Of a stretch of DNA of 64,000 nt, positions 590-58,593 are shown piece after piece. Position 1 is the first letter of the stretch, and every line of letters starts with the position of its first letter. The stretch comes from Polytrichum commune (lineage: Eukaryota; Streptophyta; Polytrichopsida; Polytrichales; Polytrichaceae). The stretch covers positions 40,535,501 through 40,599,500 of the forward strand of contig OX485805.1 of the NCBI GenBank assembly GCA_950295325.1, read 5' to 3'. The position numbers were made by a program, and so were the translations under genes. The notes below the pieces were generated by a model. That model searched no databases. It worked only from the letters and a program-made list of their open reading frames with translations, and was not told the origin of the DNA.

Positions 590-2000
590 TCAGAATTCAA
601 CAAAGCTCCTACCTGGAGCTGCTTCTGGTTGATCCCACCCACCACCAGCAGTACTTCCACTACCTCCAGCACCCCACCCCTCTGCTGATGGGGATATTGC
701 ACCCCAATCAGGTCCACCTTCTGGTACACTTTCCTTCTCTTCTGTTGTATCCCAACCAGATTTTTCCGTAGACTCTGAATCTTTATGTCTGGGTTCAGCC
801 CATGGATCACTGTTTGAAGGCACTGGATCCTCTTTCCAGCCAGCAGCAGTTTTAGGAACTGTATCATCTTTGGCATCACTCCAGCCGCTTGATTTTCTCC
901 CCCCATTGTTCTCACCTGAAGGGCTTGGTCCAGGAACCCCTCTGGAGCTCTTCTCACTGCTCCAACCACCACCACTGGTATCCTCTGCTCTAAACTCACT
1001 ACCTGGCGCAGCAGGTTCAGCAGATGCATCCCAGTCACCTCCTGAGGGGGTGATTTCTCCTGCACAATTTGACAATGTTAGGAGTTGATATATCCCAACT
1101 TCACACATCATAATGAAGGAAGACAAAACACTAAAGTTGAAGAGTCTACTGTGATATCTGATTCATCACACATCCACCTGCAGGAGGTGCTCGTGCAGGA
1201 GTCCCAGCCTGGGTACTTTGCCCAAGAGAAGACGCCTCCCAATTGTTAACTCCATTGCCACTTCGTGAGGGGGTACTGCCACCCTCCTTCCAACCACCAG
1301 GAGCAGGCTTCCTTGCTGGTGAAGCTGATATATCAGAACTCCAACCATTTGACTTTACACCCCCACGTCCACCTCCACCTTGGTCCCAACCCCCTCTATC
1401 ACGACCTCCTCCGCCTCGTCCACCTTGATTCCAACCACTGTCTCGAGCCCCACCTCGTCCACTGAACCCACCTTGGCCTCCTGCTTGAGCAGGATCCCAT
1501 CCACTTGAAGCTGGCATGCTAGCCCACCCATCCCCTGTTCCCCCCTCCACATTCGTCCCGCTATCCCAACCAATATTGCCGGCTGTTCCACTCCTTGCAT
1601 TTCCACTTTTGTCCCCCCAGTTACTACCTCCTGCAACGCTGCTATCCCAAGCTCCTCCACCACCACTTCCTGTGACTGTGCCTTTGTCCCAAACCCCTTC
1701 TCGAGAGGATCCGCCCGAATTCTCCCAGCCCCCCCGACCAGAACCTCCACTCTTATCCCAGCCACTTCTGGAAGAAGGATCAGTGTCCCACCCACTGCTG
1801 GTGCCTCCATTATCTGCACCTGAGCGACCACTTCCTTTATCCCAACCAGAGTTTCCACTTCCCCGACCACCCCAAGCCCCCCTTCCCCAACCACCACCGC
1901 TGCCCCTGGAGTTCCCACCCCGATCTCCCCAGCTCATTCTTGAATCGTAACCAGAACCACCTGAATCAGACGGCTTCCGAGAGCCTGCACTGTATCCATA
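590..2000 (-). other. WG/GW-rich C-terminal tail of SPT6L (possible Argonaute hook)
   Basis: The last two SPT6L exons encode a long Gly/Ser-rich tail. I count 27 tryptophans, 22 of them next to a glycine (GW or WG), usually as SGWD, GGWD or NWGD, spaced about every 10-20 residues. Such repeats in plant SPT6L and KTF1/SPT5L, and in the largest subunit of Pol V, are known or proposed Argonaute-binding platforms. The tail is repetitive at DNA level, so long false reading frames appear on both strands here. The binding role is inferred from the motif; the repeats themselves are directly visible. Confidence 0.85.
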
Positions 2001-5000
2001 ACTACCTGCACTATAGCTGCTTGGGCTCCGTGGAGGCACCATGGCAGCCACTGCCCTCCTGCTAGGAATAGGAGCCTCAGGTATAGGGTCGTTGAAATGT
2101 TTCTGGAAGTAGCCGACGAGTTTGTCAATGCTATCAAAATTCTTCTTCCGATAACGAAATCCATTTGGAGACAAGGAAATGTACTCATGATGAGGATTCA
2201 CAGCCCGGATGTACGAGAGCATAAAGGCTCCAGGATGTTCATGTGCTATGGACAAGTAGTACGGAATACGCTTGGGATTTTCGGCCTTGTCTGACCGTAG
2301 TGCATCATCAATTTCCAGCTTGGTTCCTTGCTTGTACTTCCGGTAACGCATCATCTCACGCAAATAGCCCACCAGTGGATCAACATACCTTGCAATCACC
2401 TACATTGTCAAAGCAGAAGGATCAGCAAACAGATAAATAGGAAAGAGAAGAACACAAATGCTATTTTCATTGATATAAGGACAAATAAAGCCCAGATCTC
2501 CAGGTATTTAATCCTCACAACATTCCTCTTAAGTCATCCTTAAAATCAACTATCTCCTTGGATGGACCTTTGAAGGTGCCTTCACAATAAAACAAGAAGT
2601 GGCTGGGAGAAAAGTGAGAGATATCTGTGAGGATGATTTTTGAGTAACCAGGACAAGGAGGAAGGAATGCACTCTTGAACCTCAAAATAGTCACAGATAT
2701 CCGGAATCAAAAACTGGGTCACAGATAACCAAAATAATCCAGCCAAAGAGAAAGAAAAAAAAGAGAAAAAGGGAATACCACTGCCCCCGGTGACAATATA
2801 AAACTACAATTGAGAAGTAATTGCATCAAAGAGGAACAAAAGAAGAACAAGAAACCAATGGGAATAATCTATCAACTTGTACAATTTTGAATACCAAGAT
2901 CTCACTACCAACTAAAGAGTAATGAGCTTTTGGTCACATAAAAAGGAGGTAATACAAACTGTACTTTTGAAGACATAGCTGTAGCTCATAGCTCTTACTC
3001 AACTTCAAAATGTTGAGTGAATTTTATCACTGAACTTGCAGACACTTGAAAGGTGGAACTTTAAACCAAAAGCCATTAGCTGTACCTCATCAAGATCCTC
3101 ATAAGATTCCTCTCCAATAGTAAGAGTCTTGCCAAGGCTCAAGAAACTCGTCAGATCCCGACTTTCTTTGCCCCCTTCTGCTATGTCTATGTGTGTATAT
3201 ACATTGTCATGAATCTTCAATGTCATTGACAAGTGTGTAGGGCCTTTGCTGCTAGGACGGATTATAACATCACCGATTTCCTTTTCTTCCAGTGCCTGCA
3301 CCCCACCATAAAACATATCCCGACCTTCAATACACACCTGTATTACCCAGATATCAAATCAACTCGTTTATAAATATAACTTGGTTATCAGATGAATTCC
3401 ACAAACTAAAATGTTCTTTTAAGTGAGTATATTTGCAGTTTGCCTAAACATATAGTGTAGTCCAGACATATAGCAAGAGCGTAAAAATTTCAGAAATATA
3501 TGTTGCACGTGTCCTGCACTAGTGAGCCCCTAGGACCACAAGACACCCATAAGCCAGACTGGAAGTGATAGTCAGGACCAACCTTCACTGCATCATCCAA
3601 AGCTACATTTTGGAAAGAAGGATGAACAATCATGCGTGGTTTGAAGGACTTCTTTTTCTCCTCCTCTCTCCTTTTGCGAGCCTTATCCTGTTCATTCCGC
3701 AAGAATGTGGGATCTGGCCTATAATAAGGATCCCGTGACTGCTGGTTGCCCCAGAAGTCCCCCCTCAAATCACTTCCCCTGTAAAGACAGGTTGTCAAGG
3801 GTACATTGAGTCAATTAACTTACAAATATCATCACACTTGTATTTAAAACAAGACTACCCAGACATTTACATTTTAAAGACATCTCACATGCTGCAAAAC
3901 TGAAGAATGTACATGACAACATTCTGTGTTCAAAGGCCTGATGGTCCTAAATATTTTGCAAAATAGATGGGATCCCTTACTTGCAGGTCAATTCCACTGT
4001 GAATTTGGCTCTTTTCACATCCTTCACTCGGCAAGTCACAATGCTGCCTTCTGCAACCTTGTCGCTAGGTTCAACATTACGGTCATCTGAAAGGTCTTCC
4101 CTTTGAATAAAACCTAGTAACCCTGATTCCAGCGCACACATAACCCGGTTCTGTTGCACTTTCCTCACTGTTGCATGCACAATCCGACCTGGGGACAATG
4201 TGTCTTCACTCTCTCCAGTCAACATGAAGAAAATTTCATCAGGCGTGTGTACAGTGTATGGCCTGCGCCAGTCTCGAAATCCATGCTGAAGCTCAGATTT
4301 TATTAACTCCAAAGTTTGGAGTCTTTTTGGTTGACCTTTAGGTTGAATATCTAAAGCAAATTCCTCAATAACCAAGCTGTCTAAATACTCAGAATTCGCC
4401 ATCACATGCTCAACAGCCATTTCCATCATGTCCTCGTCAACTTCATCATCATTCTGGTGTGCCTCCTCTTTGAAAGCAGCTTCAGCCATGTTTTTGGCAA
4501 TCTAGAGCAGCAGGAATGAAACCACAAATGAGCAAAAAGCTAGCTCCATAGATCAACTGTTTGAAAAGATAAAAATTGCAATTGATCTAAGAATTAGGTC
4601 TAGACTACAGAAAGACTGAACAAAGAGACGACTTCAAAGCAAATGCATGTGCAGTGGGAAAAGAACATATGGAATGATAAATCCTAGGAAAACATATCAC
4701 AGAAACAAAAGACACAGCAACAAAGGAAGGAATGACAAAAACAAACATCTGAACAGGAAAGGTATCCTGCAGACGTATATAGATTAAAAGGTCAAGAGAC
4801 TCTACCATGTGCAAAAATGAAAGCCCAGATAGATTACTTTCCTGACAAGTATTTGGATTGAATTTCTGCTGAGAAAAAATATGCTCACCTGATATGACTC
4901 TGGATGAATGCGAGTATCATCCAGAGGATCCAGATGCTGTATTCCAGAAGCCGCTTGTCCACTGCCACGAACACGGATAAAGCCTGCAGAATTGATGAAG

Positions 5001-16679: not shown

Positions 16680-17690
16680 AGTAAGATGCTTGTCCAAGAG
16701 AAGGAAACCATTAATTCTCTCGCTCTCGTGCTCTGTCTATGTTGCCAAATGAACTTGGAGAGCAAAGAAAGCTCCCATTTGCAAAGCAAAATTCCATGCG
16801 ATTTGTAATTAGCGTGCATATAGTGAGAGTGTGCACTTGAATCATAATCTGTATATAAGAAAGCAGAAACCGACATTAATTAATGAAGCCATAGGAACCC
16901 CAAGTGCATAACACTATTCATATCCATAACATTGTTATGTGGGATTGACAATATTTTACATAATATTCCCCACATTCAGTTTGAATCCTAATAATGTTGT
17001 TGTAGTTCAATATGAATGTGGGGAATATTCTGTAAAATATTGTCAGTCCCACAAAACAATGTTATGAATATGAATAATGTTATGTGCTTATCATGAGAAG
17101 GAAGACAGGGTGGTAGCTACTTGCTTCCATATACGGTAAGTAAGATGCTTGTCCAAGAGAGAGAAGCCATTAATTCTCTCACTCTCGTCCGTGTCCGTGG
17201 AGATTTTTGGGCATAATCGGTCGAGATTATGTGAGTTCCAATATAAACCGGTTACATGTTGGCATCTTTTGGTTTTTCTTTATCAGGAGGAGGAATATTC
17301 TGTAAATTCCTCTGGATCAATCAGTAATTTTCTCAAAGTCTTGCTTATGAACCGGCTATCACTCATACTCAACAGGTGTTTCTGTAACTAGATGTTGGTC
17401 ATCTCCATTCATGTGAGTTCCAATATATAAACCGGTTACATGTTGACATCTTTTGGTTTTTCTTTATCAAAAGAAGGAATATTCTGTAAATTCCTCTAGA
17501 TCAATCAGCAATTTTCTCAAACTCAACAGGTGTTTCTGTAACTAGATGTCAGTTATCCCCATTCATAGGTTCCCGTGCTTTCGTTATGTTTGTTTTTAAA
17601 TGAACTCAGAGAGCAGGTAAATCCCCATCAGCAAAGCAAATTTCCATGCGACTTGTATTAGTGCGTGTGTACTGTGAATTTGCACTTGAG
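16680..17690. repeat. Cluster of direct and inverted duplications
   Basis: The block GTAAGATGCTTGTCCAAGAG with the following ATTAATTCTCTC occurs near 16,680 and again near 17,138. A second block (AAATGAACT, GAGAGCA, AGCAAAGCAAA, TTCCATGCGA) occurs near 16,750 and 17,605. A unit of about 180 bp beginning ATGTGAGTTCCAATAT is tandemly duplicated at 17,229 and 17,411. No coding potential was seen; this looks like a locally duplicated non-coding repeat. Confidence 0.7.
16902..17089. mobile_element. 188-bp foldback (hairpin) element
   Basis: Two arms of about 83 bp, near-perfect inverses of each other, meet around 16,996. The outer ends read GTGCATAACA on the left and TGTTATGTGC on the right; the inner part includes GAATATTCCCCACATTC. 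The shape fits a small MITE or a precursor of small interfering RNAs. No clear target duplication. Confidence 0.65.
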
Positions 17691-18130
17691 TCGTGTATAT
17701 AAATTGTACATCAATCAAGTGGAACGAGAATGGGGAAGGTGGGCAGCACCCGGCCCTGTCGATACTAATATGAGCAAATTAGAGTTGTATGAGCTAAGTT
17801 CATGCTATATATATACTACGCATCAAGCATATCTATTGAATCATGGGTAATTATACTTCCAAGATTAGAGAGAGAGAAGAAACGTTGACCCTTGATAGGA
17901 TCAGCGTGATTGAAATGCCCGTTCGACCCACCCTTGATATTATGTCCAGTGGGCATAATATCAGTGGTGCAGGACTACTAACCCCTCTCGGGGTGGACAC
18001 TATAGGAGCTGGGGTGGCCAAGTTGGCCATGTGTGGGTGTTTGTAGGGCAAAGGTTATAACTTTGTGGAGTGGATGTTGAGTGGTCTCCCATTGGTTGAT
18101 TGTGGTGCCTTTTATTTATTGGTTGGCAGG

Positions 18131-18152
18131 TGTGTGTGTGTGTGTGTGTGTG
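18131..18152. repeat. GT microsatellite
   Basis: About eleven GT dinucleotides, followed by a T-rich tract. It lies in otherwise featureless sequence between 17.7 and 18.28 kb. Confidence 0.9.
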
Positions 18153-18279
18153 TTTTTTATTTTTTTATTTTTTTTAAAATAAAAAAATTGGGAGTACTTT
18201 CTTTTAGTTTGTATGTCGAGATGGATAGAAGCAACCAGTTAGTGTGAGTAGAGTAAAAGAGGGGTAGTGGTAAGTCCAC

Positions 18280-18515
18280 TAGTTTATTTATTTTTATTTT
18301 TTTTATTTTTAAAGATGTCACCGGTAGCTCAGGAGACGGGTAGCACCTGGTTGGTGGGTACAATTTTCCTGCCTGTGTTTTAACTCACTTGCAGTACCAA
18401 GTCATAGTGTATCACATTAAGCGCTCAGACGGGTTCACTGTGAATCGAACCCGGACCGTATTAGTGTAACACAATGTCGTGTAAACTAAGATCGTTAAAC
18501 ACAACAGATCGAGTG
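18280..18515 (-). mobile_element. tRNA-derived SINE-like element
   Basis: On the minus strand a box-B-like sequence, GGTTCGATTC, lies at about 18,450-18,459, with a plausible but weak box A about 35 bases upstream (CTTAGTTTACACGACA). It is followed by about 130 bp of body and an A-rich tail (T-rich on the plus strand, 18,280-18,314). This order, an internal Pol III promoter followed by body and tail, is that of a SINE. No target duplication was found and the rest of the head does not fold into a tRNA by eye. Confidence 0.4.
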
Positions 18516-19180
18516 TTGTTGTCAACATCAATTAGCAAAATAAAATAGCAAAATAAAATGCTAAACAACCACCTCTTCAAGCTTAAGGGTTTCTCTCTCC
18601 AAGCTTAAGAAACTAAAATGTCTCCTTACAAAGCTTAAGAAACTTTAAAATTCACACACAAGAGTCAAGCTATCTCTCACTCCACGAAGGGAGAATCCAA
18701 GAGTGCAAGTGGTGGAGAAAGAATGCAAAGGCTTTACTCATAATCTACTACACCATAGCCATGAGAAAGCAACAACAAGCTCTCTCTCTCTCTCAAAACA
18801 CACTCACAAGACTTGACTTGACAACAATGGCAAGTCAAGGGGCCTTCCTCTCCATACAACCCCAATCCTATGTGGAGTTCATCCATGGAGTGGATGAACA
18901 ACTAACTAGGACTCCCAATGGAGTCCATTACTCATCCCAACACACATGGACTCCTAATGGAGTCCATTTACTCCTAAATTGACGTAACTTAGCCCCCGAT
19001 GTCACCTCACGTGACAACAATCCATCTTACCCAACCAACCGTGGGACCATGACTTGGCGACCATTTACAGAATTGACCACACTTATACTTCAACCAAGGC
19101 GTTTGCTATTCACTAATGGTTATTGGTCTATTGATTACATGTTTATGGTTATTTGAGTGTCTATTCTCAAAGTGGGTAAG
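18516..19180. other. Intergenic sequence, no gene seen
   Basis: Contains a short repeated phrase (ACTCCCAATGGAGTCCATT and ACTCCTAATGGAGTCCATT, about 50 bp apart near 18,910-18,970), each an imperfect palindrome. Nothing else is supportable. Confidence 0.5.
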
Positions 19181-19202
19181 TTTTTTTTTTTAAATTAATA
19201 TT

Positions 19203-20330
19203 TTATCTATCTAGTTGTGTGTCTAGTGGTATTGACTCGTTATTTTCTATCCTTCTTTTGTGCAGAATTATGGACATAGCGTATTGTATGGCAATGACAT
19301 TGATTGCCTCAAATGTGTTTTTGATGCTCTGCTTAGGGGTTTTAAATGTTGTTTCAATGTTGTCCATAGAAGGGATGTGTGTGGTAGCCCTAGCGCCTGC
19401 AGTGATGACAATTAGTGGGTCTATCTTCCAGCCTTTGTTGGCAATATTGTCTATTAAAGGTTTATATTTTTCTATTTTTCGGTTTATAGTTTCATCCGGT
19501 ATTCTATCGTTGCAGTATGTAAATTCAATGAATTGTATTGTTAGGTTGTCATTGGGTTCTAGTGGGGGTGGGGACTGGTATGGTAGTCCTTTCACACATA
19601 GAAGGTCTGGTTTGAATCTGGCATTACAATGGCACCTTTGTTGACCACATTCACACGGTAATAACCATGAGGGGACCGTGTTTTCTGGGGGGTCATTATT
19701 GAATGTTCCTGCATTCATGAGAATAAAACATCTTGATTTTTTTGATGACACCAAAAGTTTTCTTAATTCCCATATTGCTTTATTGTGTCTTTTGGTGCGG
19801 AGGGCATGTATGTGGTGTTGTTTGCATTTTAGAAGTACATGTAGCCATGTATCCGGGTCTGTTGAGTCACATATGGGGCATGTAATTGATGGAAAAGCTT
19901 CTCTGCCAAAGAATAGTTGTTTCCTAGCATTTCCCATGTATTGACCGTGTTGCAGTTTTAGAAGGCATGTTTTTTGGGAGTCAGTTATGTTTTTGTTTGT
20001 CCAAAATTTATTGGATAACTCATTGTCTATTTTGTCGTTGGCTATCCATTTATCTATGTTGGGGTATAATATGGGGATTAATTATAAATTTATGTTCTTG
20101 TTGTACGTCACTAGGTGTTTTTCTAGGAATTTGATGGGCCCTTTGTCCGGGGTTGTTTCCATTGATGGCCATGTGTCTCTTTGGTAGTAGTATGGCGTTG
20201 AGTGGGCAAATTCGTGTAGTTGAGAGGCGTTGTAGTGTTCTTTTGATGTCCCTTCTTTGGCAAGTGCGTCGGCTTCTTCGTTACCTTTAATGTTTGCATA
20301 TGCTCTTACTTTGTATAATGTTGTGGGTTG
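19203..20330 (-). pseudogene. LINE: CCHC motif and restriction-like endonuclease (REL) domain
   Basis: After RNase H comes CPICDSTDPDTWLHVLLKC (near 19,850), a CCHC zinc motif, then KRHNKAIWELRKLL, matching the RHN block that follows this motif in R2, NeSL and Dualen elements. Next come RFKPDLLCV (near 19,605), IQFIEFTYCNDR (near 19,525), KIEKYKPLID (near 19,465) and PLIVITAGARA (near 19,400). These match the PD, (D/E)xT and KxxKY positions of the REL PD-(D/E)xK nuclease. One stop lies near 20,085; the 735-base stretch 19,203-19,937 is open to its natural end. Confidence 0.8.
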
Positions 20331-22748
20331 GGTTCTTTCTCGGGGAGTTCACTAGACATGTGTATATGTATACACGTGCGTGACAAGGGTATTTATTCAA
20401 GGGGTATTTAATTATCCATCCTTAATTTTTTGTACCGTATTATTATATAATTTGCTAATTTCTTGTTTTTTAAATGACCCTATAATTACTTTTAAATTTG
20501 ATGAAGCTTAAATTTTAAGCTAGGTATGTTCATTATAATTATTTGATTTTGCTCCAAAGGGTTTAAGAGCATTCAAAGTACTAAGTCACCAAAATCCAAG
20601 GCACAACAAGGTTTTACATTAAGAGTGTTCATAAGCAATTTCAAACAACAAAATCAGCCCATGTTCTTCAATCAAGTTACACGCACAATTAAACACAACG
20701 ATACTGAGTGTAAAAAAAAAACACTCAAAACACCAACAACAAGCGGAGGGCAACCGACGGTCTGGACTCAAGATTTGGGAGTGAAATGGGACCTACATGC
20801 AAGCACGAGTTCAAAAGTTGGACTTGTGTGGTCATTATGAAGATTCGATCTCCACTTAAAGTAGAGAGAGAGAGAATGACCTGCACAGGCCACCTGCAAA
20901 CCCCACCTCTCAGAAAATCAACAGCATCGAAGAAAAAACTCTCGCCAACACTAAACCGCAAACCCCACCTCTTAGAACGGTGAAAAAAAACTCCCAAAAC
21001 CTAATCCTACAGCAAAGTTCTCCCCCAATGTTTCCTAAACCCTAATCCGTCAGCCGCCCTCATCAATCTTTCATCCCATTTTTTCAATTGAATCGACATA
21101 GTTTTTCATCCAAAATCTTCCCGCCTCTGAACACAAAGGACACCCTATTTTTTTTAAAACCTAGGATCCTTAAATCCTACAGTATATTTTTACAAATATT
21201 TTTAAAATATGCATTATTTGTATCAAGCCTATATTATTTATAATACAAATTTTATCATACATACTCACCTATATTACTTCTAAGAAAATTCTAAGTTTTT
21301 CCTTTTGTGAATATAAATTACCCTATATTTTCCCGCACGTTGTTTTCTAATATTATCGCAGTGAACTCCCCGAGGGTTCTTTGTGTAAGAAAGTTCACTA
21401 TTTCTTCTAATATTGTTTTATCGGGGTGATTATTGTGTAGTGTGGAGTGTTTGATTTGGTTTTTGATTACATATAGGCCGTTAAGACAGTCTGTGAAAAT
21501 ATGTGCTGGTTCATTTGGGAAGTCGTTTTTTATTATTGTGAGGGTGTGGTGGATGGCCATTAGTTCTGCTCGAAATATGTTTTGTAGGCCTGGTAGTCGT
21601 AGTGCGAGTTTGATATTTTTTTCTTGGTTATATATACCATATCCGGCTTCTTCTCTCCGCCAAATGTCTCCCATTTTTTTGGGGGGATTAAAGGATCCAT
21701 CTGTGTAGAAGCAATACTTGGGGGGGAATTTGAGTGGTGTTTCTTTTTCATAGTTGGGGATTTGTGGAATTGTATTGTGTAGTTGTGTGTTTGGAGTGGG
21801 GTAGGTGAGGGTGTTCCATGTTTTACATTTGTTGACTTCTAGATTTTGTGGGGTAGGGGGAGCAATTTGGGTGGTTATACGGGTTATGTTCAGGTTGTTG
21901 CATATATTTCTTATTGTGTTCATTTGTTCTGTAGTACCGATACTATTATTTTGGTGATGGACGTATAGGATTCTTATGGTGAGTGGTTCTATGCGTGTTT
22001 CATTGGATTCTTGTGGTCTTGTAGGCTCTTCATATTTGGTGGTGTCTGCTGGTATTTGCGTGATTACATGTGTGTCTGGGAAGGGGCCTAAATGTGGTGT
22101 AAAATTTTGGTACCAATTTGAGTCTGGGATGATAAGTATAGTGGTGGTATATGGATCTTGCTTTGCTGCTAGTCTGGCCCAATGGATGGCTTTTTGGGCT
22201 TCAATTTCATTGTGTGGGTGGGCGTATCCTATTCCTTGCCACTTATGTGAGAATGCGTTACCGATGGATCCAAAGATTTTATCTCTAGGAAATGGTGAAA
22301 AGAATTTGGTTAGATGGGTTGAGCATGTGACTGGTGATGAGAAATAAGAATGTGTGATTTCAAAGGATGTCGTGATATAATCTAATAGTGTTTTGGGCAA
22401 GGAATGATGTGCGTTTTTAAGTGGGTCATTTTTCGGTATTCTGTGTTTGTACCTTTGGTAAAGCCACGTTATTTTGATTTCAAATGGTTGAGTAGGGGGT
22501 ATTAAGTCATGTGGTTGATGTAGTGTGCGGTTGTATTGGTTCCATAACCAAGTCAGCCTATTGTATGGAATGGTGATAATGTGTTTGCCTGTTTCATCAT
22601 AGATATACGCGGAGTCATTTTGTATTTGGATTTTGTTTGTGTTAGTGTTAATGTCTTTTTCAGGGTTGCATTCTTGTATTGAGATTTTCACGAGTGGGGT
22701 GTTCAGGGGAGGGGAAATGTGTCTGGGATCTTTGTTTTGTGCAAACAT
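20240..22748 (-). pseudogene. LINE: RNase H domain, interrupted by a nested DNA element
   Basis: Motifs FYTDGSFNPPKK (near 21,700), FRAELMAIHHTL (near 21,560) and IFTDCLNGLYVIKN (near 21,480) give the D, E, D triad of RNase H. The C-terminal block KGNEEADALAKEG (20,240-20,300) lies beyond the nested element of 20,339-21,374. The usual His of the last block is a Tyr (RAYANIKGNE). The 22,748-21,600 part includes about 300 residues of linker without recognised domain. Confidence 0.85.
20339..21374. mobile_element. hAT-like element nested in the LINE, 8-bp target duplication
   Basis: A 1,036-bp element with perfect 14-bp terminal inverted repeats (CTCGGGGAGTTCAC and its inverse) flanked by GGTTCTTT on both sides. 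Removing the element and one copy of the 8-bp repeat restores the LINE RNase H reading frame, so the boundaries are exact. No transposase is encoded. The centre (about 20,700-21,120) is less AT-rich than the flanks, with AACCCTAATCC phrases like a plant gene's 5' region, so it may carry captured gene sequence. A 9-bp duplication (Mutator-like) with a one-base asymmetric end is an alternative reading. Confidence 0.85.
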
Positions 22749-22950
22749 GTCATTTTCTTTTATGATATTTTCATATTTTTTATGCTGTATTTTGGTGTAG
22801 TATGTGAGTATTAAGTTTGTGTTATGTTGTATGACTCTTGGGAGATTGTAGGGGAATAATTCTCTTTGTGGGAGGTTTTTGGTGTATATCGTTCCATTGG
22901 ATAATATCCATTGGCATAGGTATGTGTGTTGGTTTTTTATAATTTTGTAT

Positions 22951-23375
22951 TTATCTGTAGTTGATTTTATGCAGTGGTCTATTATTGACTGTATAGGGTA
23001 TTTTATTGGGTTGTTTTTTTATGTGTACTGGAGTGGTCGGGTGTGTTGGGTGTGGTGGGGTTAGTGGGTGTATACGGGTTTCGTTATTTGTTATATTATG
23101 TTCCCTTATGACGTATGCTCTTTTTAGTGTACGTGGTGGGTAATGTTCTTGGCATGTTTCTAGGCATTCTTCATTACAACATGGGTAACAAAATAATTTT
23201 TCTATTATTTTCAAAGCTTGTTTTATCGGGTGGGTGGGTTTTTTATAGTATTTTGAGCATTCGATGTATGACATTAAGTGTGTGCAGTTTGGAAGGGTGA
23301 GTTGTTTTATGTCATATATGTTTTCCAGAAGTAATTTGTGTATATATTTTAACTCTCGGGAAGACAATTTCTGAG
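22951..23375 (-). pseudogene. LINE: Cys-rich segment between RT and RNase H
   Basis: Encodes LFCYPCCNEECLETC near 23,150-23,195, a compact cluster of cysteines (C-x2-CC-x3-C-x3-C) that could bind zinc. It is offset in frame from the RT upstream by a shift in a G-run near 23,380. I do not know a named domain for it. Confidence 0.55.
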
Positions 23376-25445
23376 GGGGGGTGTAGTGGATAACTTATGC
23401 CATTCTCTTTCAAGTGGTGTGGCTTTTAAGGGGAATTTTTCTATCTTACTTATGAGGTGGGCTCCACCTGCTGTTTTGATAAGGTATATTGTTCTGGTAG
23501 TGGGGGATCTATTGCAATCATGGTGCCTGATTCTGGGTATGTTCTCTGCACCCCCGTATTTGGCTAGTATGTAATGTGTAAGACCTCTATATATTGTTCC
23601 AAGTTTACCTTTGTCATTTAATGCATTTCTTAGTTGTTCCCCTATGCATCTGAGGTAGGCATTTTTTAATGAGAAGGCTTCTATTCCAAACAATTCGTGG
23701 GGTAGTTGAGTGACCATGTTTGGTGTACATTTGGGGAGTCCACATATTTTCTTTTGGATGGCTATTATTTTTTTATCTAGTTTTATGATCCCAGGCAGTG
23801 AGAACGGTACTGCGTAGAAGCTGTATGCAATTCCTGCTCTAATTACTGTGTCTACCATGCTGATTTTTTGTTTCATTGTAGCAGGGCAATTTGCTAGTTG
23901 ACTACATTGGCTGATAACCTTAGTGGTGGTAACGTGTATTTGTATTTTCCATTTGAGAGATGGGACTAGTTGAATACCTAGGTATACGTAGGGTTCATTT
24001 TGGTGGAGTGTTGGAATGGTTTGGTTTCTATATGTGATGTTGGCGGTTTCTATATGTGTTTTGAATATTTCTTGGTTCATTTTGGATTTATTTGGACAAC
24101 CAGTGACTGCACATTTTGATATTCCGAGATCCATTCCGGCCCATTCGCAGTATCGGTCTAATTTGTTTAATTGTGCCTGTAATGATGAGAGCTTGTTGGT
24201 GCTTGCTGCTAGGTCATCTGCATATGCTACCGAGCTAATTATGGCTTTGGATGTTCCAAAAGTATATCCATAGTTACCTTGTTTTAACCATCTTAATAGG
24301 GGTTCCAAAAATATGATGAAGAGATATGGGCTAAGGGTGTCTCCTTGTATAGTGCCTCTTTGTATTGGGATTTCTTTTGTTCTGCCGAAATATTCTCCAG
24401 AGAAGGTGGTGTTGGAGTGTGAATATATATTACCAATTATTTGAACTGCGTCTTCTGGGTATCATAAATCTTTCATAATGGCTAAAAGTCTTGCATGGTC
24501 TATTGATCCGAATGCATTTTTGAAATCAATGTAGAGTAAATAAATATCTTGGTTGGTGAATTGGGCATCTTCTAGTGCTGCTATTAGTGTTTATATTTGT
24601 CTTGATGTGTACCGTTCTGCTCTGAATCCCTCTTGGCTGTCTTGTAATATTTGATGTTTCTCACCATATGCTGAGAGTATGAATGTTAGGGTGCTTGTAA
24701 AGAATTTATATATGGTGTTAGCGAGTGCTATTGGTCTGTGATTAGATAGTAAGGAGGGGTCTCCTTTTTTGTATAGCAGTATTGTGAGGCTGGTTTTCCA
24801 AGAGGTCGGGATTTGTTTTTGTTTGTAACAATGTGTGAAAAACAAGAATAGTATGTGCTAGAATTTTTGAGGCATATTTTTTAATATGGAATTGGGAATT
24901 TTGTCTGGGCCTGGAGTTTTGTTGTTTGCTAGATTTTTGAGGCAAAGGTTATATGTTTCTAAGTCTAGGTATGTATATAAGGGTGTGTGTGGGTCTCCTC
25001 GTTTTTCTAGGACCAATCCTTCTAGGTCGTGCCATGGATATTGCCTAACTGCGCACGTGCATTTAGGGGGGTGTTTTGATAAGTAGTAGCATGTGGGTAC
25101 GGCGGGTTTGTTACTAAGGGTTTGTTGTATGTGTATTTCATTTGCAATGTCCTCTGGATTTGTGAGTATATTGTTGTTACGATCCGTGATGCAATCTAGT
25201 GGTGGGGACTCAAGATTTTTAAATACTTTTCTGTTTATTTTTTTTGGGTTGGTTTCGTACAATTTTCTATATTTGGATATGGCCTTCTTAATGCATTCTT
25301 TAGTGTATTTAGTAGTAATTTTTCTAGCTTGTAAATTTGCTGTTTTGGCTATTACTGCTATTTCTTTGATCCATATATTTATTAGGGCTTCGTCTTCAAG
25401 TGGGGACGGGATGTGTATTCGGCTATATTGTCCTAATGTGTTCAT
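23349..25445 (-). pseudogene. LINE: reverse transcriptase domain
   Basis: RT motifs appear in order: NKTPGPDKIPNSILK (near 24,900), LYIDFKNAFGSIDH (near 24,520), RGTIQGDTLSPYLF (near 24,345) and the catalytic AYADDLAAS (near 24,220), followed by KCAVTGCPNKSK and YLGIQLVPSLKW. The YADD box and the GDTLSPYLF stretch differ from the FADD typical of plant L1 elements. Several in-frame stops lie between 24,860 and 24,460; the part from 24,308 to 23,349 is open. Confidence 0.9.
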
Positions 25446-25620
25446 GATTGGGTGTGTACGCCAATTTGGTAGGTTTTTTGTGATGTATATAGTTTTCCTA
25501 ATTAGATGGTAGGTTGTTATGTGTTGTTTCCATATTTTTTGGGTTTTTCTGGGTAAGTAGCCACCTTGTTAACTGGCTCTATTGGTTAAGGTGGGTATAG
25601 GTGTGGCACTACATGTTTCT

Positions 25621-26395
25621 TCAATTGTTTTGAGAGATTATTTGGGTGATATTATTCATTTGAGTACATGCTTGTTGCCATTGGTCTGGTGTTAGGTGCT
25701 CTTTAGATAGCAGGGTGGTTATTTCATTAAGTTGGATTGCATTTTCTTCGAAAAACTTGGTATTAAAATTATCTATTTTGTCTTGTGGAATGGGATTTAG
25801 AATTCTAGTTGATGTAGGGATTGTGGGTTGTGTTGCTCGGGCTATCAGGGTGTTAGGTGGTATTTCTAAACTGATTGGTAGGTGGTCAGAATTTAGATTT
25901 TGTTCTTGTAATGTTCTTGATGTATATGTTGTTGCATGTTGTGTGTTGGTGTAGAAACCGTCAATTAGACTAGTATGCGTGTAATTATTTCCTCCTTGTC
26001 TAGAATATGTGGTGTTAGTAGGGATATAAGCGAGGGCTAGACTATCTATAAAGGTTCTCCATCTAATGTCTTCTTCTTGTGGGGGGGTGGTACCATGTTC
26101 ATTTTGTCGACTTATTAGTGCAATGCCTCGATTAAAGTCTCCGCATAAGGTATGTGTATGATTTGGGTGTGCATTTATTTGTGTTTTTATAGTGTGTATT
26201 ATGTCTGGGATTAATCTGATGTCTCCTTCGTGTGATGGCATATAAATATGAAGTAGTAACCATGGTTTTAGTGGGTTGTTTTTAATATGGATAATTTGTA
26301 GATATGGTGATATGTTGGCAGGGGAAGGTATTTTGGAAATGTTTCCTTGGAATGCATATTTTTTGTTTACGAGTGTAAGGAGGCCCCCTCTGGTT
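25621..26395 (-). pseudogene. LINE: APE-like endonuclease domain (N-terminally truncated)
   Basis: The reading begins VTRGGLLTLVNKKYAF at the truncated 5' end and continues through IYMPSHEGD, LCGDFNRG (near 26,140) and NSDHLPISLEI (near 25,880). The last two are the GDFN and SDH motifs of apurinic/apyrimidinic-type endonucleases of LINEs, which nick target DNA. The N-terminal strands with the first catalytic Asn and Glu are missing because of the 5' truncation. Confidence 0.85.
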
Positions 26396-27329
26396 ACTTA
26401 CTATACATTCACATGAATTGGAGTTGAGATGCAAATCTAAGGAGGGTTCATAGTGATGATTAGATGAGATTATGCATGAATTACGGTTTCATGATTTATG
26501 ATCTATATTGATTCATTGGATATTTAACTATTTTCATACTATTCATGAGTTAATTATAACATTTTTATTTATTGATTTCTATTAACATTTTTATTAGCTT
26601 CAAATTTCTAAACAATAGCATTACGTTTTGTGTATTTCTTCGATTGTAATTTCTCGTTATTGATGCTGACCAATAATATATAGTAGTTGCAAAGAACCAC
26701 TTTGAACCAAATCATATGAGTAGGGCAGCAGAACAACATACAATTGAACCCTCATAGAAACGAGAGTCTAAGTCTCACCTCTCATGAGTTTGTATTGTCA
26801 AAACAATGACGTTGTTCCAAAAAAATCATACTTTGAATCTCTACAAAACAGTCATTGCCAATTTTCACATTTGCAAAAATGTAGGCAATAAAACAGCACT
26901 CGATTTTCTATGATAGGGTTCATGTAAACTCCATGCAAAAGAACGTCCAAAGGAAAGTCTTCCGTCCAGCAAAAGCAGTGCACAGCTTCAACTTAAAAAG
27001 TCCACACAAAGGTTCCGAAAAACTGGTCCCAGACCCATCATCTTCCATTTAGCCTTCATACTCATTGTCTGTCCACCAAGAAGGGTTTGTAAAGATTCCA
27101 TTGCACCGAATCTTACAAAAATCCAGCAAGTAGCACCAAACATGGAAGGAATTGTCTGCAAAGGAACCATTAGAATACCTTTAGAAAACTGACTTCCAAC
27201 CAAGACTGAGTTTGAGTATAAAGGATGTGGTTGCAAAACTGGATTTATCAGAAACAAATATATGTATACAATCCAGCAGCTTCAGCTACCTACTCACATC
27301 AAGAGAGAGACTGCAAAGTGCAAAGAAGA
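26396..27329. other. Sequence upstream of the truncated LINE, no gene recognised
   Basis: AT-rich. A minus-strand open stretch of 89 codons (26,988-27,257) exists, but I see no known motif and no splice context that would make it an exon. Confidence 0.4.
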
Positions 27330-27625
27330 AACACCATAAGGACACATGTTTAAAAGAGGTTGGACTACTGTGTGTCTTCAATATTCATTAACTATTCCAC
27401 ACTCAATTGGGGAGGATCTATGTATTTAGTTAAGGAATCAACAAACATACACTTGCAATAACCATGACTAAATTAAGGGAGGTCTAATTTTCAATCCGAT
27501 TTTTGTTGATGCTACATCGTAGATTTGTTAATGCAACACAAATTTCATTGTGTAAATCTAATCAGCAGAAGTTGGAGAACGTGAGAAACGAATTGAATAA
27601 CACCCACATACCTTACACGGCTTAG
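27330..27625 (+). repeat. Uninterrupted copy of the dispersed repeat
   Basis: Carries the ordered blocks GGACACATGTTTAAAAGAG, CCACACTCAATTGG, GGAATCAACAAACAT, CAATCCGATTTTTGTTGATG, AATGCAACACA and GCAGAAGTTGGAGAA. It serves as the empty-site reference for the MITE at 16,095-16,392. Confidence 0.65.
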
Positions 27626-31229: not shown

Positions 31230-33413
31230 TCAATAGGCCCACTTCCTGTACTCATCCCTCGCCGGGCTGCCGGGGGGTGTAACCCTGATGCCAGCGCGAG
31301 GAGGAGGACTCCTGTTCAACTTGCGAGCAGCTTCCAAAGGTCGTCTTGTCCCGCGTCCGAGCGGCCGGTGATGCGACTTATCCCTCGTGGAGAGAACGAT
31401 GAAGAAGCACGATGTGGCCACGATGGCAGGGAACTTGCCCACAATGAGGAACAACAATGTCACAAGCAAACCTACCATCGGCCATACCTCCACATTCTTT
31501 TCCTTCGCCTCCTCAGCTGTACCTGGCTGCAAACTGCTCCTCAATTCGGGTCCTGCAGGTGCCTGGCTTGTTGTTGGCACATAATCAATTGAGTCTCCAG
31601 ATGCCATCCTGCACAACACCGATTTCCGGCACCCATTGCTACCGCCCCTCCCATGTCCATGGTCGACAGAACTCTTGTCCCTCCGCAAGATACATCTCTT
31701 GTTTCCACTGGATCTCCTCTCAAGCGCTTTCGGATGATTTTGTTCGGTGGTATGATTTTGTTCACCACCATCTGCAGATGAGGATGCATCGTTGTTGTTG
31801 TTATTCGCTAACAGGGATTTCCCCTTGGCCTTGCGTGAGAATGGGAACTTCCTGTGGTGCCGCTCCGGGCTCGAAACCCTAGAGGGTGAGGGCGAGGGTG
31901 AAGGGGAAAACAGAGGGCTACCTGGCTCCGAACCAGAGAAGGGTGTTGTTGCCCCAGATTGTAAAGACATCATAGGGCTCTCAGCCGTGCTGGACAACGC
32001 ATCATCTTCTCCTCTCGCAACATCAACGGATGACGAGGCTTTCGATGATTTCCTCGGCTTCAGTTTCAACAAGATCTTCCTTGCGAGCCGTCGGGTGGGA
32101 CTTGCACCTTCACGTTCCATAGAAGAGGCAGGGGAGAGAGGAAAACTTCTAAATCCAGGAGGGCTGGTAACCTCCACCTCCACCGCAGCAGGAATAATTT
32201 CATCTTCAGTGGTGGCAAGCAGGGATGCCAAGGTTGCAGGAGCAGAGATACTCGGGCCTAACATAGATGATGGAGCAGCCAACCTCATCGGCGAGGGAGG
32301 CATCGAACCTAGAGGTAACACTGGAAACACAAAGCTAGGGTTTCGCACGTGCGTAGTAGTAGCAACTTCATCAGTAGTCTCCGACTTCGGATGCAATTCA
32401 AAACCTCTTGATGATAATTGCGAATCCACATCTGCTGCCTCCTCCTTCTCCACATCCACCTCCACCCTCCTGACTGGGAGGATGGCCAGCACCCTTCGTG
32501 GCGAGTGCGCAGTAATGTAGGTTTGCAATGGGGTGAGGAAATACTGAAAAAACACAAACTTGGCATACATCTTTCCTTTGTGCCATCTCCTGATCACCAC
32601 ACTGAAGCTCATCGCAGCCGCTAAAGGGTTGACGAAATTCGCTGTGTGGGAGGCGATGTATGCACCCAATGCCACCAACACCGCCAATGCCCTCCATCCC
32701 TTCCCTTTCAACCCTCTCCCCTTCTTGTTAATGCAAATTGAGCCTTTCAAAGGCAAACTCGCAATTCCTACCACCCCTGATGATCCAGAGCATCCTACCT
32801 CCTGTGGATCCGACCTTCGCTCCGCCATGGCTGCAATCTCATCATCCGCCATCTCATCCCTTCCAAGCCCTACATCATCGTCATCTGCACTCAATTCGCC
32901 CACAATGGCTGCCTCGTCTGAGGAGGGGGCGAAGGAGAAGCTATGTGAGAAATCGATGAGCTCCGTGTTACCGACGGAGGATTGCGGGGAACACTGCAGG
33001 AGGAGAAGCTCTGAAGATCTGGAGAAGGATGGCGATGGTGATTGCGTTGTTGATGATAGCGATGGTGATGTTGATGTTTCCTTTGGTGTGTTGTTGCTAC
33101 GGCGTCCTCGGCTAGCGGTGCGGGCGAGAGTGGTAGCGGTCCACTCCTGTGCGGAGCGAGACAAGCTGCGTGCCGCGGCTACCGAATTTCCCGTGTGATC
33201 AACCAGCGAGGTTTTCTTGGCTTGAAGCTCCGCAACCACCACCGCAAGCTTGTCCAGCCCGTGTGTTGAGTAAGGGTTGGGCTGCTTGCTGCTCTTCTTC
33301 TTCTTGTTGGTGTTGGCGTTGCCGTAAATCCGATTCTTCTTCCCGCCCTCGCCACCCCCGCCCGGTGATAGCTTCTTCTTCAACTTCGGCCACAGTTGCC
33401 TCAGCTCCGCCAT
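31230..33413 (-). CDS. Uncharacterised Ser-rich, probably membrane-anchored protein, 727 aa, single exon
   Basis: One uninterrupted frame of 727 codons; I chose ATG 33,411-33,413 (MAELRQLWPKL) over an in-frame ATG 27 codons upstream because the upstream part looks like leader sequence. Visible parts: basic N-terminus; NPYSTHGLDK at 46-55, reminiscent of plant ZCF37-type proteins; long Ser/Asp-rich linker; hydrophobic region about 243-305 (RALAVLVALGAYIASH, then FVFFQYFLTPLQTYI); second Ser-rich linker; hydrophobic C-terminal pair about 641-675 (VEVWPMVGLLVTLLFLIVG); and a basic tail ending RDEYRKWAY. This suggests a membrane protein with long disordered loops. Base composition is clearly higher in GC than the flanks, which supports a real host gene. 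Function unknown. Confidence 0.8.
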   Translation of the reverse strand: MAELRQLWPKLKKKLSPGGGGEGGKKNRIYGNANTNKKKKSSKQPNPYSTHGLDKLAVVVAELQAKKTSLVDHTGNSVAAARSLSRSAQEWTATTLARTASRGRRSNNTPKETSTSPSLSSTTQSPSPSFSRSSELLLLQCSPQSSVGNTELIDFSHSFSFAPSSDEAAIVGELSADDDDVGLGRDEMADDEIAAMAERRSDPQEVGCSGSSGVVGIASLPLKGSICINKKGRGLKGKGWRALAVLVALGAYIASHTANFVNPLAAAMSFSVVIRRWHKGKMYAKFVFFQYFLTPLQTYITAHSPRRVLAILPVRRVEVDVEKEEAADVDSQLSSRGFELHPKSETTDEVATTTHVRNPSFVFPVLPLGSMPPSPMRLAAPSSMLGPSISAPATLASLLATTEDEIIPAAVEVEVTSPPGFRSFPLSPASSMEREGASPTRRLARKILLKLKPRKSSKASSSVDVARGEDDALSSTAESPMMSLQSGATTPFSGSEPGSPLFSPSPSPSPSRVSSPERHHRKFPFSRKAKGKSLLANNNNNDASSSADGGEQNHTTEQNHPKALERRSSGNKRCILRRDKSSVDHGHGRGGSNGCRKSVLCRMASGDSIDYVPTTSQAPAGPELRSSLQPGTAEEAKEKNVEVWPMVGLLVTLLFLIVGKFPAIVATSCFFIVLSTRDKSHHRPLGRGTRRPLEAARKLNRSPPPRAGIRVTPPGSPARDEYRKWAY

Positions 33414-33446
33414 AGCCTTCCCCTTTCCTTTCCTTTCCTTCCTCCC

Positions 33447-33926
33447 AAAAACTCCACAGATCACTCGAAATTGCTCAAAATTGCTCGAAATCACCTAACC
33501 CGAACCCAATTGCTTGCTTACCCTTGAAACCGAAACCAAAACCTCGTTCACGGGGCAGAAATCTGCGGAACCCAACTCCTAATCCTTTTCTACATCTGCA
33601 ATTCCAGTTTCGAAAACTCCACAGATCGCTCGAACTGGCCTAGTACCCCAAACCCAATCGCTTGCTTACTTGCCCCTAAACCGGAAACCTCGTACACGCG
33701 GCGAAATCCAAAACCTGTGAAACCCGACTCCTAATTTTTTATCTAAGTTTGTAATTGCAGCTGCGAAAACTCCATGGGTCGCTCGAACTCGACTAGTACC
33801 CCACACCTCAATTGCTGCTAGCTCTTCTTCTCGCCCCAAAAACCAAAGTCAAAACCAAACCTCGTACGGCGAAATCGGTTAAACCCAACACCCAATCCTT
33901 GATCTACATCTGGAATTGCAGCTTCA
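33447..33926. repeat. Three degenerate tandem repeats upstream of the 727-aa gene
   Basis: Units start at 33,447, 33,613 and 33,766 and run 166, 153 and about 161 bp. Each begins AAAACTCCA, continues with a TCGCTCGAA-like block and a CAATTGCTTGC-like block, and ends with CTACATCTG-like sequence plus CAGC/CAGTTTCG. They sit 30-510 bp upstream of the start codon, in the leader or promoter. Preceding them at 33,420-33,440 is a short CCTTT repeat. Confidence 0.75.
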
Positions 33927-56583: not shown

Positions 56584-58593
56584 CAGTCTAACCTTGATAA
56601 TATCACACCATCCGTTTCACCATAAAGTGTGATATAAACAAGGTGTGACATATTTGATAATGTCACATTTTGAAGATTTGTGCATAATGTGATATTATCA
56701 AAAAAAAAAGGGTAGAAAATCAAAATGAAATTACAATGTAAAAAATATATATAAAAAAATCAAACACAAGACTTCAATGTTTTTGAATGTAAAATATAAT
56801 TCAAAATTGTGAATAACAACATGAGCACATCACAATGTGTCATTGAGATCAGGTAAAGACCTCTCACTAGAGACAAAGAAGCTTCTAATGTCATATTGTT
56901 TTAGTGATGTTAAATGTCCAACACCAATTCTAATGAGTTTGTCATGGATGTTTTCCATTCCTAACAACTCATGAGTGTTGAAAATCTGAGAACCTTGGCT
57001 AGCCATAAAATTCAAAACATCTTTAGCATATTTTTGTGCATCGCTTAGCTTCACTACTTTAGACTCATCATCATTGCTATTAACAATCAATGGGTCTTCT
57101 TCCATGGAATCAAGTACATGTTCGCCATCTTGCACTAATTGCACAAGCTCCTCAGTAGAATATTCCACCTCAAAATCATCTTCACCTTCCATGTTTATGT
57201 ACTCTAAAGGACTAAGCTTTTCTTGCCTTCAACATCCAATGCGGCGATGAGATTGCCCAATTCCAAAGCTGCTTCCTCCATTTTGGACTTCATACGTTCA
57301 TCAGAATTGTTGATATCTGCATTCCACGCTGCAGGCAATATGGCAGACTTTCTCCAACAATTTCTAATGGTTTGATCATCTAATTCATGCCATGCCGCCA
57401 CACACCATAGCATTGCTTGAAATAGATCAACATTCAGTTTCCCCAAATCTTCATTTGAGTTATCAATTTGTTGCAAAGTCCAGGCAACAAGCTTGCGTTT
57501 ATAGCACATTTTGAATGCTGCAATCACTCCTTGATCCAAAGGCTGAACAACTGAAGTCACATTTGGTGGAAGAAACAATATAATGATATGGGAGAGTACA
57601 AAAGCATTAAATCCATCTATAACTTTTTTGACCTCACCATGAATATCATGGCTTCCTGCATTATCCATAATAATGCAAATTTTTCTATCTTGCAATGTCA
57701 TTCTTCGGTTCTCACTCTTCACCCAATGTGTAAAAGCATCACCATTCATCCAGGCTGAATTGTTAGAATAATAGTGTACTATACTATTTGGATCAAACTT
57801 CCGAGGAAAGCATCTGGGACGTGTTGATTTGTGAATGAAAACAAGCTTCAATCGCTCCTTCCCTGAGATATTAGTGCAAAGCCCCAATGTCACACGGTCC
57901 TTCTTCTTTTTATTTCCTTTTGCCTTCCCAATATTCAAAGTCTTGCAAGGAGAGGCTTTATAATACAAACATGTCTCATCAAAATTGAAGATGTCTTCAG
58001 GATCTTACTAGATTCTCCTATGCGACTATTGACTATAGAAACAGTGAAGACCGTGCCACATATCTTGAGATTTCTACATTGCAAACTAATTTAGCTTAAG
58101 TCGACACTACTCTGTACCAGCTCAGCTAAACCGTAGAACTTAACATCCTAAATTACTGCACACAAGCTGAAACCCTCAAAGACACATAGGTGAACACATG
58201 TGACGGAAGGTGGGGTGCATAGAGGCCAAGAAGTCTTGGCAGCGCCGTCAAAGACAACACCTTTGAGTGCCGTGTATACTAGTATAGACAGCACCGTTCA
58301 GGGTTGGTGCACAGAGGCGGCTCATGACCCTTTGAATAACATTGCATTTATCACAGGGGTGGCTCATGACCCTTTTGGCTACTACAATATGTCCATCCAA
58401 CCATCACATACAATCCATCCATATTTGATATTATCACATTTACACTACGGATTTTGGAAAAAAATAGTGACATTAACAAGGGTGATAGGGATAATAACGA
58501 GGGAGTTTTACACTAAGAAAATCGGTTTCAAACTTTTAGGTGACAGTATCAAGGTGTCCCATTAACAAGGGTGACATTATCAAGGTTAGACTG
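56584..58593 (-). mobile_element. pogo-like DNA transposon, both ends intact, internally deleted
   Basis: A 2,010-bp element flanked by TA, with terminal inverted repeats starting CAGTCTAACCTTGATAAT and matching for about 25 bp (one mismatch). CAGT ends and TA duplication fit the pogo branch of Tc1/mariner (plant Lemi/Emigrant group). Subterminal regions repeat TGACATTATCA-like motifs. The minus strand encodes the C-terminal part of a DDE transposase; the N-terminal DNA-binding part is replaced by about 400 bp of unrelated sequence (58,015-58,430). Confidence 0.85.
56830..58010 (-). pseudogene. pogo-like DDE transposase fragment
   Basis: The reading starts near 58,010 with IFNFDETCLYYKASP (first catalytic Asp in FDET), then IIMDNAGSHD (second Asp) and LFLPPNVTSVVQPLDQGVI with the third Asp region, and YKRKLV, all typical of the DDE_1 family shared by pogo, Tigger and CENP-B. 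A frameshift near 57,210 separates the core from the C-terminus (LSPLEYINMEGED to PDLNDTL, stop at 56,830). The N-terminal CENP-B-type helix-turn-helix is missing, so it cannot work as a complete transposase. Confidence 0.85.

Follow-up and report, generated by a model that had tools for sequence, protein, structure and literature searches.

Does a land plant harbour a long interspersed element (LINE) that encodes two kinds of endonuclease? The question is raised by a minus-strand element within 64,000 nucleotides of the genome of the moss Polytrichum commune (contig C3, positions 40535501-40599500, the whole of which is hereafter called the window; the genome comprises 408 Mb in 64 contigs, seven of them large). 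In our reading, to which we give a probability of about 0.85, it is a LINE of the Dualen/RandI type, i.e. a target-primed retrotransposon whose Pol protein combines an apurinic/apyrimidinic-type endonuclease (APE) with an R2-like restriction-like endonuclease (REL), and it belongs to a large, recently active land-plant family. Dualen/RandI elements are described as encoding both nuclease types (PMC3636483, PMC4640811). They are listed for green algae only in a 2015 survey (PMC4438587), were reported from relatives of Chlamydomonas (PMC8226300) and are annotated as LINE/Dualen in cryptophytes (PMC12747079); a 2022 review presents plant LINEs as L1 and RTE (PMC9033089). No report of a land-plant Dualen/RandI was found in the available text of the open-licence literature.

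Family size and intact copies

A protein search with the reverse transcriptase (RT) of the element gave at least 111 matches (of 1,988 candidates), 67-100% identical, on contigs C1-C7 and C24; each of the seven large contigs holds RT copies. When the 3'-terminal 1.1 kb was used as a DNA query, 42 matches were obtained (best 40 of 1,114 candidates scored), which fell at 98-99%, 91-94% and 81-84% identity. These copy counts are lower bounds because the best candidates alone were scored. The distribution of RT matches over C1-C7 and C24 argues against a contaminant or mis-joined contig as the source of the element, as do the nested inserts of the window copy and its position some 10 kb away from a gene that encodes Spt6 S1 (3980-4489, minus strand) and SH2_2 (1149-2399, minus strand) domains, the SPT6-type neighbour that an earlier note on this DNA had named. 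The land-plant host assumed in that note is likewise borne out by psaA of the plastid contig C8, whose best PDB matches were 8htu (1724 bits), 6l35/7ksq/7kux/7xqp (1704) and 9lut (1698), with all others at or below 1651; we take 8htu and 6l35/7ksq/7kux/7xqp to be from the moss Physcomitrium patens. Contamination is thus scarcely credible.

A second RT search gave 88 matches, eight of which have open frames of at least 2,000 codons and no stop within the match. Two of these loci (L043 and L044) were taken whole and L066 as its C-terminal part (open frame of 2,663 codons). L043 and L066 lie on different chromosomes and differ by eight mismatches in 3,728 bp (99.65% identical), their CCHC-REL codons being identical over 235 codons; identity of this degree over 3.7 kb implies that activity of the family is very recent. 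The recent activity claimed in the earlier note therefore holds for the family but not for the window copy, which is dead.

The two intact copies, P0001 (2,924 amino acids) and P0002 (2,919 amino acids), share one domain order: low-complexity leader, 2A/StopGo-like motif, APE, RT, PCIF1-like domain, RNase H, CCHC zinc motif and REL, the last recognized by motif. Both matched RVT_1, RNase_H (PF00075, 3.6e-12 and 1.5e-14) and PCIF1_WW above the Pfam cut-offs, and P0002 also Exo_endo_phos. Their proteins are 63% identical over 2,351 amino acids, beginning at the 2A motif. Between them the ratio of non-synonymous to synonymous change (dN/dS), a rough value here with dS at 1.3-2.0 in domains and up to 2.9 in linkers, was 0.14 in APE, 0.07 in RT, 0.13 in the PCIF1-like domain, 0.19 in RNase H and 0.13 in CCHC-REL. 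Purifying selection acts on APE as well as on REL, and the presence of two endonucleases in one LINE, as first suggested from the window copy, is supported by these intact relatives.

The C-terminal REL region

REL was sought as an ordered signature, CCHC - [RK]H[ND] - [RK]PD - [DE]xT - KxxY, by a six-frame scan of the window and 66 loci; the pattern was composed once the family and R2-like sequences were known, so the following counts are not a blind test. The signature was detected within one open frame in 8 of the 30 family loci found by 3' DNA match (many others being decayed there), in six of seven larger family loci (L039-L044 and L066) and in all three R2-like loci (L060, L062 and L065, on contigs of metagenome-assembled genomes, MAGs). 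None of 26 other loci had it, a set that includes five L1, six CR1-like and one other LINE, nor did any of 60,000 shuffled C-termini. Within the window it occurs once, at 19464-19880 (minus strand), where it confirms the CCHC, RHN and REL motifs that had been noticed behind RNase H. The window copy and the loci L039, L043, L044 and L066 retain CxxC-x9-HxxxxC, RHN, [RK]PD[IL]L, IEFT and KxxKY or similar in this position, and the signature residues are invariant in a seven-copy alignment in which six copies are 64-67% identical to the first. Of the six pairs among L039, L043, L044 and L066, five are informative and give a REL dN/dS of 0.08-0.20; the four loci are in effect three lineages because the L043-L066 pair shows no differences.

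An ordinary APE-type LINE of L1- or RTE-like kind, in which a C-terminal zinc knuckle and basic tail merely resemble REL, would also end in a motif of this sort: plant L1s of the same genome end in CxxC...HxxxxC too (three of three tested), and profile methods find no REL. We nevertheless regard this alternative as very unlikely, for the five-part signature occurs in the family and the R2-like loci but in none of five L1 loci, its residues are constant and under the selection just described, and the family RT lies outside L1 with full support (see below).

The copy in the window

Comparison with fuller sisters places the 5' junction of the window copy at 26395, inside the APE domain, and its 3' end at about 17866. 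Of the span first proposed, 19181-26395, the upper limit stands and the lower is replaced by the latter position, 19181 marking no more than the A-rich spacer behind the stop codon. The copy is broken by stops, frameshifts and two inserts, and is dead for these reasons; its two long pieces are 97-99% identical to the nearest sisters, L039 and L040. Stop-free pieces running from 26397 to 19206 on the minus strand hold APE, RT and RNase H by Pfam. RVT_1 scored 7.2e-14 in 23352-24461 (minus strand), and against PDB chains the window RT matched R2 at 1.2e-11 and L1 at 1.2e-6. The first APE motifs are absent here through the 5' truncation and present in the two intact copies. The parts of the copy are as follows.

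17866-26395, minus strand: whole LINE copy, 5'-truncated within the APE domain, dead (homology limits against L039/L040, L010-L012 and L022).
25624-26395, minus strand: APE endonuclease, C-terminal part, RGGLLTL ... LCGDFN ... NSDHLPI (open frame; Pfam Exo_endo_phos_2, 2.3e-7, above cut-off, match in 25624-26397).
24861-25568, minus strand: APE-RT linker and start of RT, NKTPGPDKIP (stop-free frame without Pfam match; the stretch is also present in intact copies).
23352-24857, minus strand: RT with QGDTLSP and YADD, together with the thumb; stop codons near 24593 and 24462 (RVT_1; PDB).
22954-23394, minus strand: Cys-rich linker in a shifted frame, CYPCCNEECLETC (frame; no Pfam match).
22125-22499, minus strand: PCIF1/CAPAM-like domain with AHPH at the position of the catalytic NPPF (PF12237, 5e-10; alignment of copies and with PDB PCIF1).
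21375-21719, minus strand: main part of RNase H, YTDGS, RAELMAIH, FTDCLN (PF00075, 5.8e-8, match in 21321-23018).
20340-21373, no strand assigned: 1,034-bp insert within RNase H with 14-bp terminal inverted repeats, TCGGGGAGTTCACT (comparison with sisters).
20247-20321, minus strand: C-terminal end of RNase H, GNEEADALA (PF00075, 0.029, below cut-off).
19824-19880, minus strand: CCHC zinc motif, CPICx9HVLLKC (signature scan, alignment).
19464-19880, minus strand: REL signature, comprising CCHC, KRHN, RFKPDLL, IEFT and KIEKY (scans with controls; dN/dS in copies).
17866-19202, minus strand: 3' untranslated region (UTR), interrupted (common to five copies with different flanks).
18475-19016, no strand assigned: 542-bp insert, TGTCACGTG...CACGACA, with a 5-bp duplication ATTGT, resembling a solo long terminal repeat (LTR) (comparison with sisters).
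17866-18011, minus strand: 3'-terminal structured RNA element of four helices and (TTCTCT)n tail (alignment of copies, covariation).

The 1,034-bp insert is flanked by AAAGAACCC on both sides and is probably a DNA transposon; the 542-bp insert has TG...CA ends. Elsewhere in the window we detected a DDE_1 transposase frame (57207-57968, minus strand, 4.4e-36) and a 754-amino-acid open frame (31233-33494, minus strand) with no Pfam match at E 0.01, perhaps a plant gene.

Kinship of the reverse transcriptase

Against PDB chains the family RT matched R2 chains best (6.5e-31), then 8gh6 (1.7e-19), presumably Bombyx R2, and 8c8j (5e-18), which we take to be human L1. A first RT tree comprised the family, five R2 or R2-like rows, four L1 rows of the same genome, five CR1-like rows (a label of our own; two such rows carry APE by Pfam) and one other LINE, L056. 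L052 (L1), L065 (R2-like), L058 (CR1-like, close to L059) and the PDB L1 chains were omitted from the trees, the second of which also drops the long row L056; the row 'win' is the sister L039 and not the window copy. The family formed a clade to itself (100/100), apart from the rows of L1, R2 and CR1-like elements. The L1 rows formed a 100/100 group that excludes it, so that the placement inside L1 named in the earlier note as a refutation did not occur, and the R2 rows also grouped without it (99/98 and 95/96). R2 was its sister with support of 83/87 in the first tree and 57/29 once the long row was removed.

Relatives were also looked for in viral contigs, where two scans gave no matches, and in genome contigs, where ten eukaryote-like LINEs (L056-L065) were found in prokaryote MAGs and served solely as references. 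The bins that hold these ten are labelled bacterial or archaeal, e.g. Thermoprotei, Thermocrinis and Poribacteria, and the LINEs are probably contamination of the bins by host or other eukaryote DNA.

The tree bears on whether the moss family might be a separate dual-endonuclease lineage, in which an R2/NeSL-like LINE gained APE, or the reverse, independently of Dualen, so that the likeness is one of layout alone. The RT sits on its own long branch (1.8-1.9 changes per column) without a resolved sister, and the family carries a PCIF1-like domain and a 2A leader that, to our knowledge, are known in no Dualen. RNase H and non-A 3' repeats are, however, common to RandI as described (PMC4640811, PMC3747384), and the hosts of RandI and of the moss family both belong to the green lineage. 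On balance an independent origin seems rather unlikely, and the Dualen/RandI type is the reading we prefer.

The PCIF1-like domain

Between RT and RNase H lies a domain that the earlier note did not mention, detected as PCIF1_WW (PF12237) at 5e-10 in the window and at 1.3e-10 and 2.9e-12 in the intact copies. Genome-wide at least 150 places matched PF12237 (of 697 candidates), and none of 14 control genomes did. The best PDB match of the domain profile was PCIF1, weak at 0.041. The catalytic NPPF is replaced by HPHN or HPPN in all five copies read (AHPH or AHPP as aligned), and since this motif is replaced a catalytic role is unlikely; the domain probably binds RNA rather than methylating it.

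The leader and ORF1

The intact copies P0001 and P0002 contain a 2A-like motif, LL(K/R)xGDIxxNPGP. The motif form given for 2A/StopGo in non-LTR elements is D(V/I)ExNPGP (Roulston 2016, PMC4981915), and putative motifs lie inside the open frame as GDIETNPGP in L044 and GDIELNPGP in L039/L040; L043 reads GDIKPNPGP, off the published form. Upstream of the motif the frame is stop-free for 544 codons in L043 and 505 in L044, where shuffles that keep dinucleotides contained on average 26 and 23 stops, respectively, and none at all in 0 of 500 each. The leader is therefore translated, or recently was, its frame being open beyond the shuffle expectation; its sequence is poorly conserved between copies.

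In L043 the first ATG of the leader frame overlaps the stop of an upstream frame, and L039 and L040 have an ATG two bases past the stop of the first open reading frame (ORF1); in the latter two the leader and 2A frames differ, joining at a TA repeat. No in-frame ATG was found in L044 within the 317 codons preceding its 2A motif. A relative of ORF1 was detected in L044 (35% over 144 amino acids, 1e-21) and not seen in the part of L043 examined; ORF1 had no Pfam match above cut-off.

The 3' end and insertion

Four helices occupy the final 140 bp of the 3' UTR, a structure taken partly from the RNAalifold consensus of the same sequences and partly drawn by eye. In 31 copies 93.2% of cells pair, with two-sided changes at 13 pairs and in 34 cells, against 12.0 +- 2.6 cells in shuffled alignments, none of 500 reaching as many; sliding the helix partners left 3-11 two-sided cells. 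A first count, in 26 of 33 copies and without the window copy, agreed with this one, which omits two second fetches of sites already included; L066, a near-copy of L043, is in neither. Rfam gave no match at E 0.1 in window positions 17500-27500, L010, L043 or L044. Most copies of the window group end in a (TTCTCT)n or (CT)n tail; that of L043, L044 and L066 is (CTAT)n.

An A-run that follows the stop codon had been considered as a poly-A tail and was rejected in favour of an internal A-rich spacer, because in five copies it precedes a shared 3' UTR, beyond which the flanks differ. Site-specific insertion, suspected from the shared sequence after the A-run, was also rejected, because that sequence proved to be 3' UTR. 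Separately, a 3' UTR block of some 130 bp (L044, 9191-9320, compared with L010) is oriented one way in one subfamily and the other way in a second (79% identity, 8.6e-18) and contains GGTTCGATTC, which resembles a tRNA B-box; the block is possibly a shared short interspersed element (SINE) or an inversion.

Both junctions were available for four copies, of which two carry target duplications, of 13 bp (L023) and 14 bp (L038). The listed flanks of family copies revealed no target site in common. Both observations, the duplications because they resemble APE-type insertion, would suit a REL that is a vestige being lost while APE alone works. REL dN/dS nevertheless matches that of APE in the same pair (0.13 and 0.14), and L043, L044 and L066 retain the signature; we hold a vestigial REL to be improbable.

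Identity and proposed mechanism

The features of Dualen/RandI that were found comprise APE N-terminal to RT, CCHC and REL at the C-terminus (by motif), RNase H and non-A 3' repeats. The RT falls neither inside the L1 clade nor in that of R2, and the family does not have the single REL without APE of R2 elements.

Several results weigh against the assignment. It is an assignment by layout and domain content, and the approximately unbiased (AU) test rejects neither L1 (p 0.09 and 0.24) nor CR1-like rows (p 0.53) as sister of the family RT. The APE of P0001, unlike that of P0002, has no Pfam match at E <=1, and the dN/dS values are rough because dS is near saturation. For REL, scores above a profile threshold had been predicted and did not materialize: no Pfam model matched it in the window or the intact copies, its alignment profile found no nuclease among PDB chains by hmmsearch, and hhalign against the three R2-like RELs gave no signal (probability 0.1, both profiles being thin), with a score of 4.9 compared with 10.9 for the best of 50 column shuffles and a shuffle mean of 2.3. 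A single-sequence AlphaFold model of REL had a mean confidence (pLDDT) of 33. REL thus rests on motifs, conservation and selection, because profile and fold methods gave no confirmation. At the 3' end, the observed number of further pair types was reached by 22 of 500 shuffles, and no target duplication was found in the window copy or in L022.

For a Dualen/RandI-type element we envisage that the RNA would code for ORF1 and for ORF2, the latter reached by reinitiation at an overlapping or adjoining start, and that the 2A motif would release the catalytic part from the low-complexity leader. RT would bind the 3'-terminal RNA structure; one nuclease may nick the target and thereby prime the cDNA, with synthesis from the microsatellite tail; the other may serve for the second strand or for binding of the target. 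The 13-14-bp duplications suggest that APE shapes the cut. Rather unlikely is a fuller scheme, in which the family would be a dual-endonuclease lineage of land plants' own that has taken up a cap-methyltransferase fold without the catalytic motif, this fold would recognize the cap or the 5' terminus of the element's RNA, 2A release and the 3' structure would set up integration, and APE and REL would each cut one strand.

Comparison with known systems

Dualen is otherwise known mainly from algae; what the family adds is an element of the Dualen/RandI type in a land plant, one that also has a PCIF1-like domain and a leader with 2A. The repertoire of plant LINEs is thereby extended past L1 and RTE. 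The family's intact, near-identical and recently moved copies offer a tractable system for the role of each nuclease, and the PCIF1-like domain, maintained by selection in the absence of the catalytic motif, provides a hint of RNA recognition that can be tested.

Plant L1 elements of the same genome (L048-L052) resemble the family in having APE upstream of RT and a zinc motif near the C-terminus, but they lack the REL signature and their RT belongs to another clade. R2-type LINEs (the R2 chains of the PDB and L060, L062 and L065) share the CCHC and REL signature and provide the best PDB matches of RT, and the structured 3' UTR known for R2 is a further likeness; the moss family differs in its APE, RNase H, two ORFs, 13-14-bp duplications in two of four copies and the absence of a target site common to the flanks. 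A D(V/I)ExNPGP-like motif ahead of the enzymes is shared with non-LTR elements that use 2A/StopGo, reportedly treated by Odon in 2013, from which the family differs in its plant host and in the deviating motif of L043. With PCIF1/CAPAM, the cap m6Am methyltransferase, it shares the Pfam domain PF12237, although the moss domain is without NPPF. Retrotransposons have also taken up DNA methyltransferases (PMC5890265), a parallel in that a methyltransferase-type domain is under purifying selection in a retroelement; those enzymes are C5-cytosine DNA methyltransferases, whereas the moss domain is PCIF1-like and has no catalytic motif.

The closest likeness is to Dualen/RandI itself, with APE and REL in one LINE, RNase H and short non-A 3' repeats. 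Non-A 3' terminal repeats are given for all eight RandI families in Table 3 of PMC3747384. The repeats of Dualen/RandI include (ATT)n and (CTATTT)n, compared with (CTAT)n and (CT)n in the moss family, which differs by its land-plant host, the PCIF1-like domain between RT and RNase H and a 2A motif after a long leader. In the view given in PMC4640811, REL-LINEs and APE-LINEs represent two phases of a single history, which Dualen connects.

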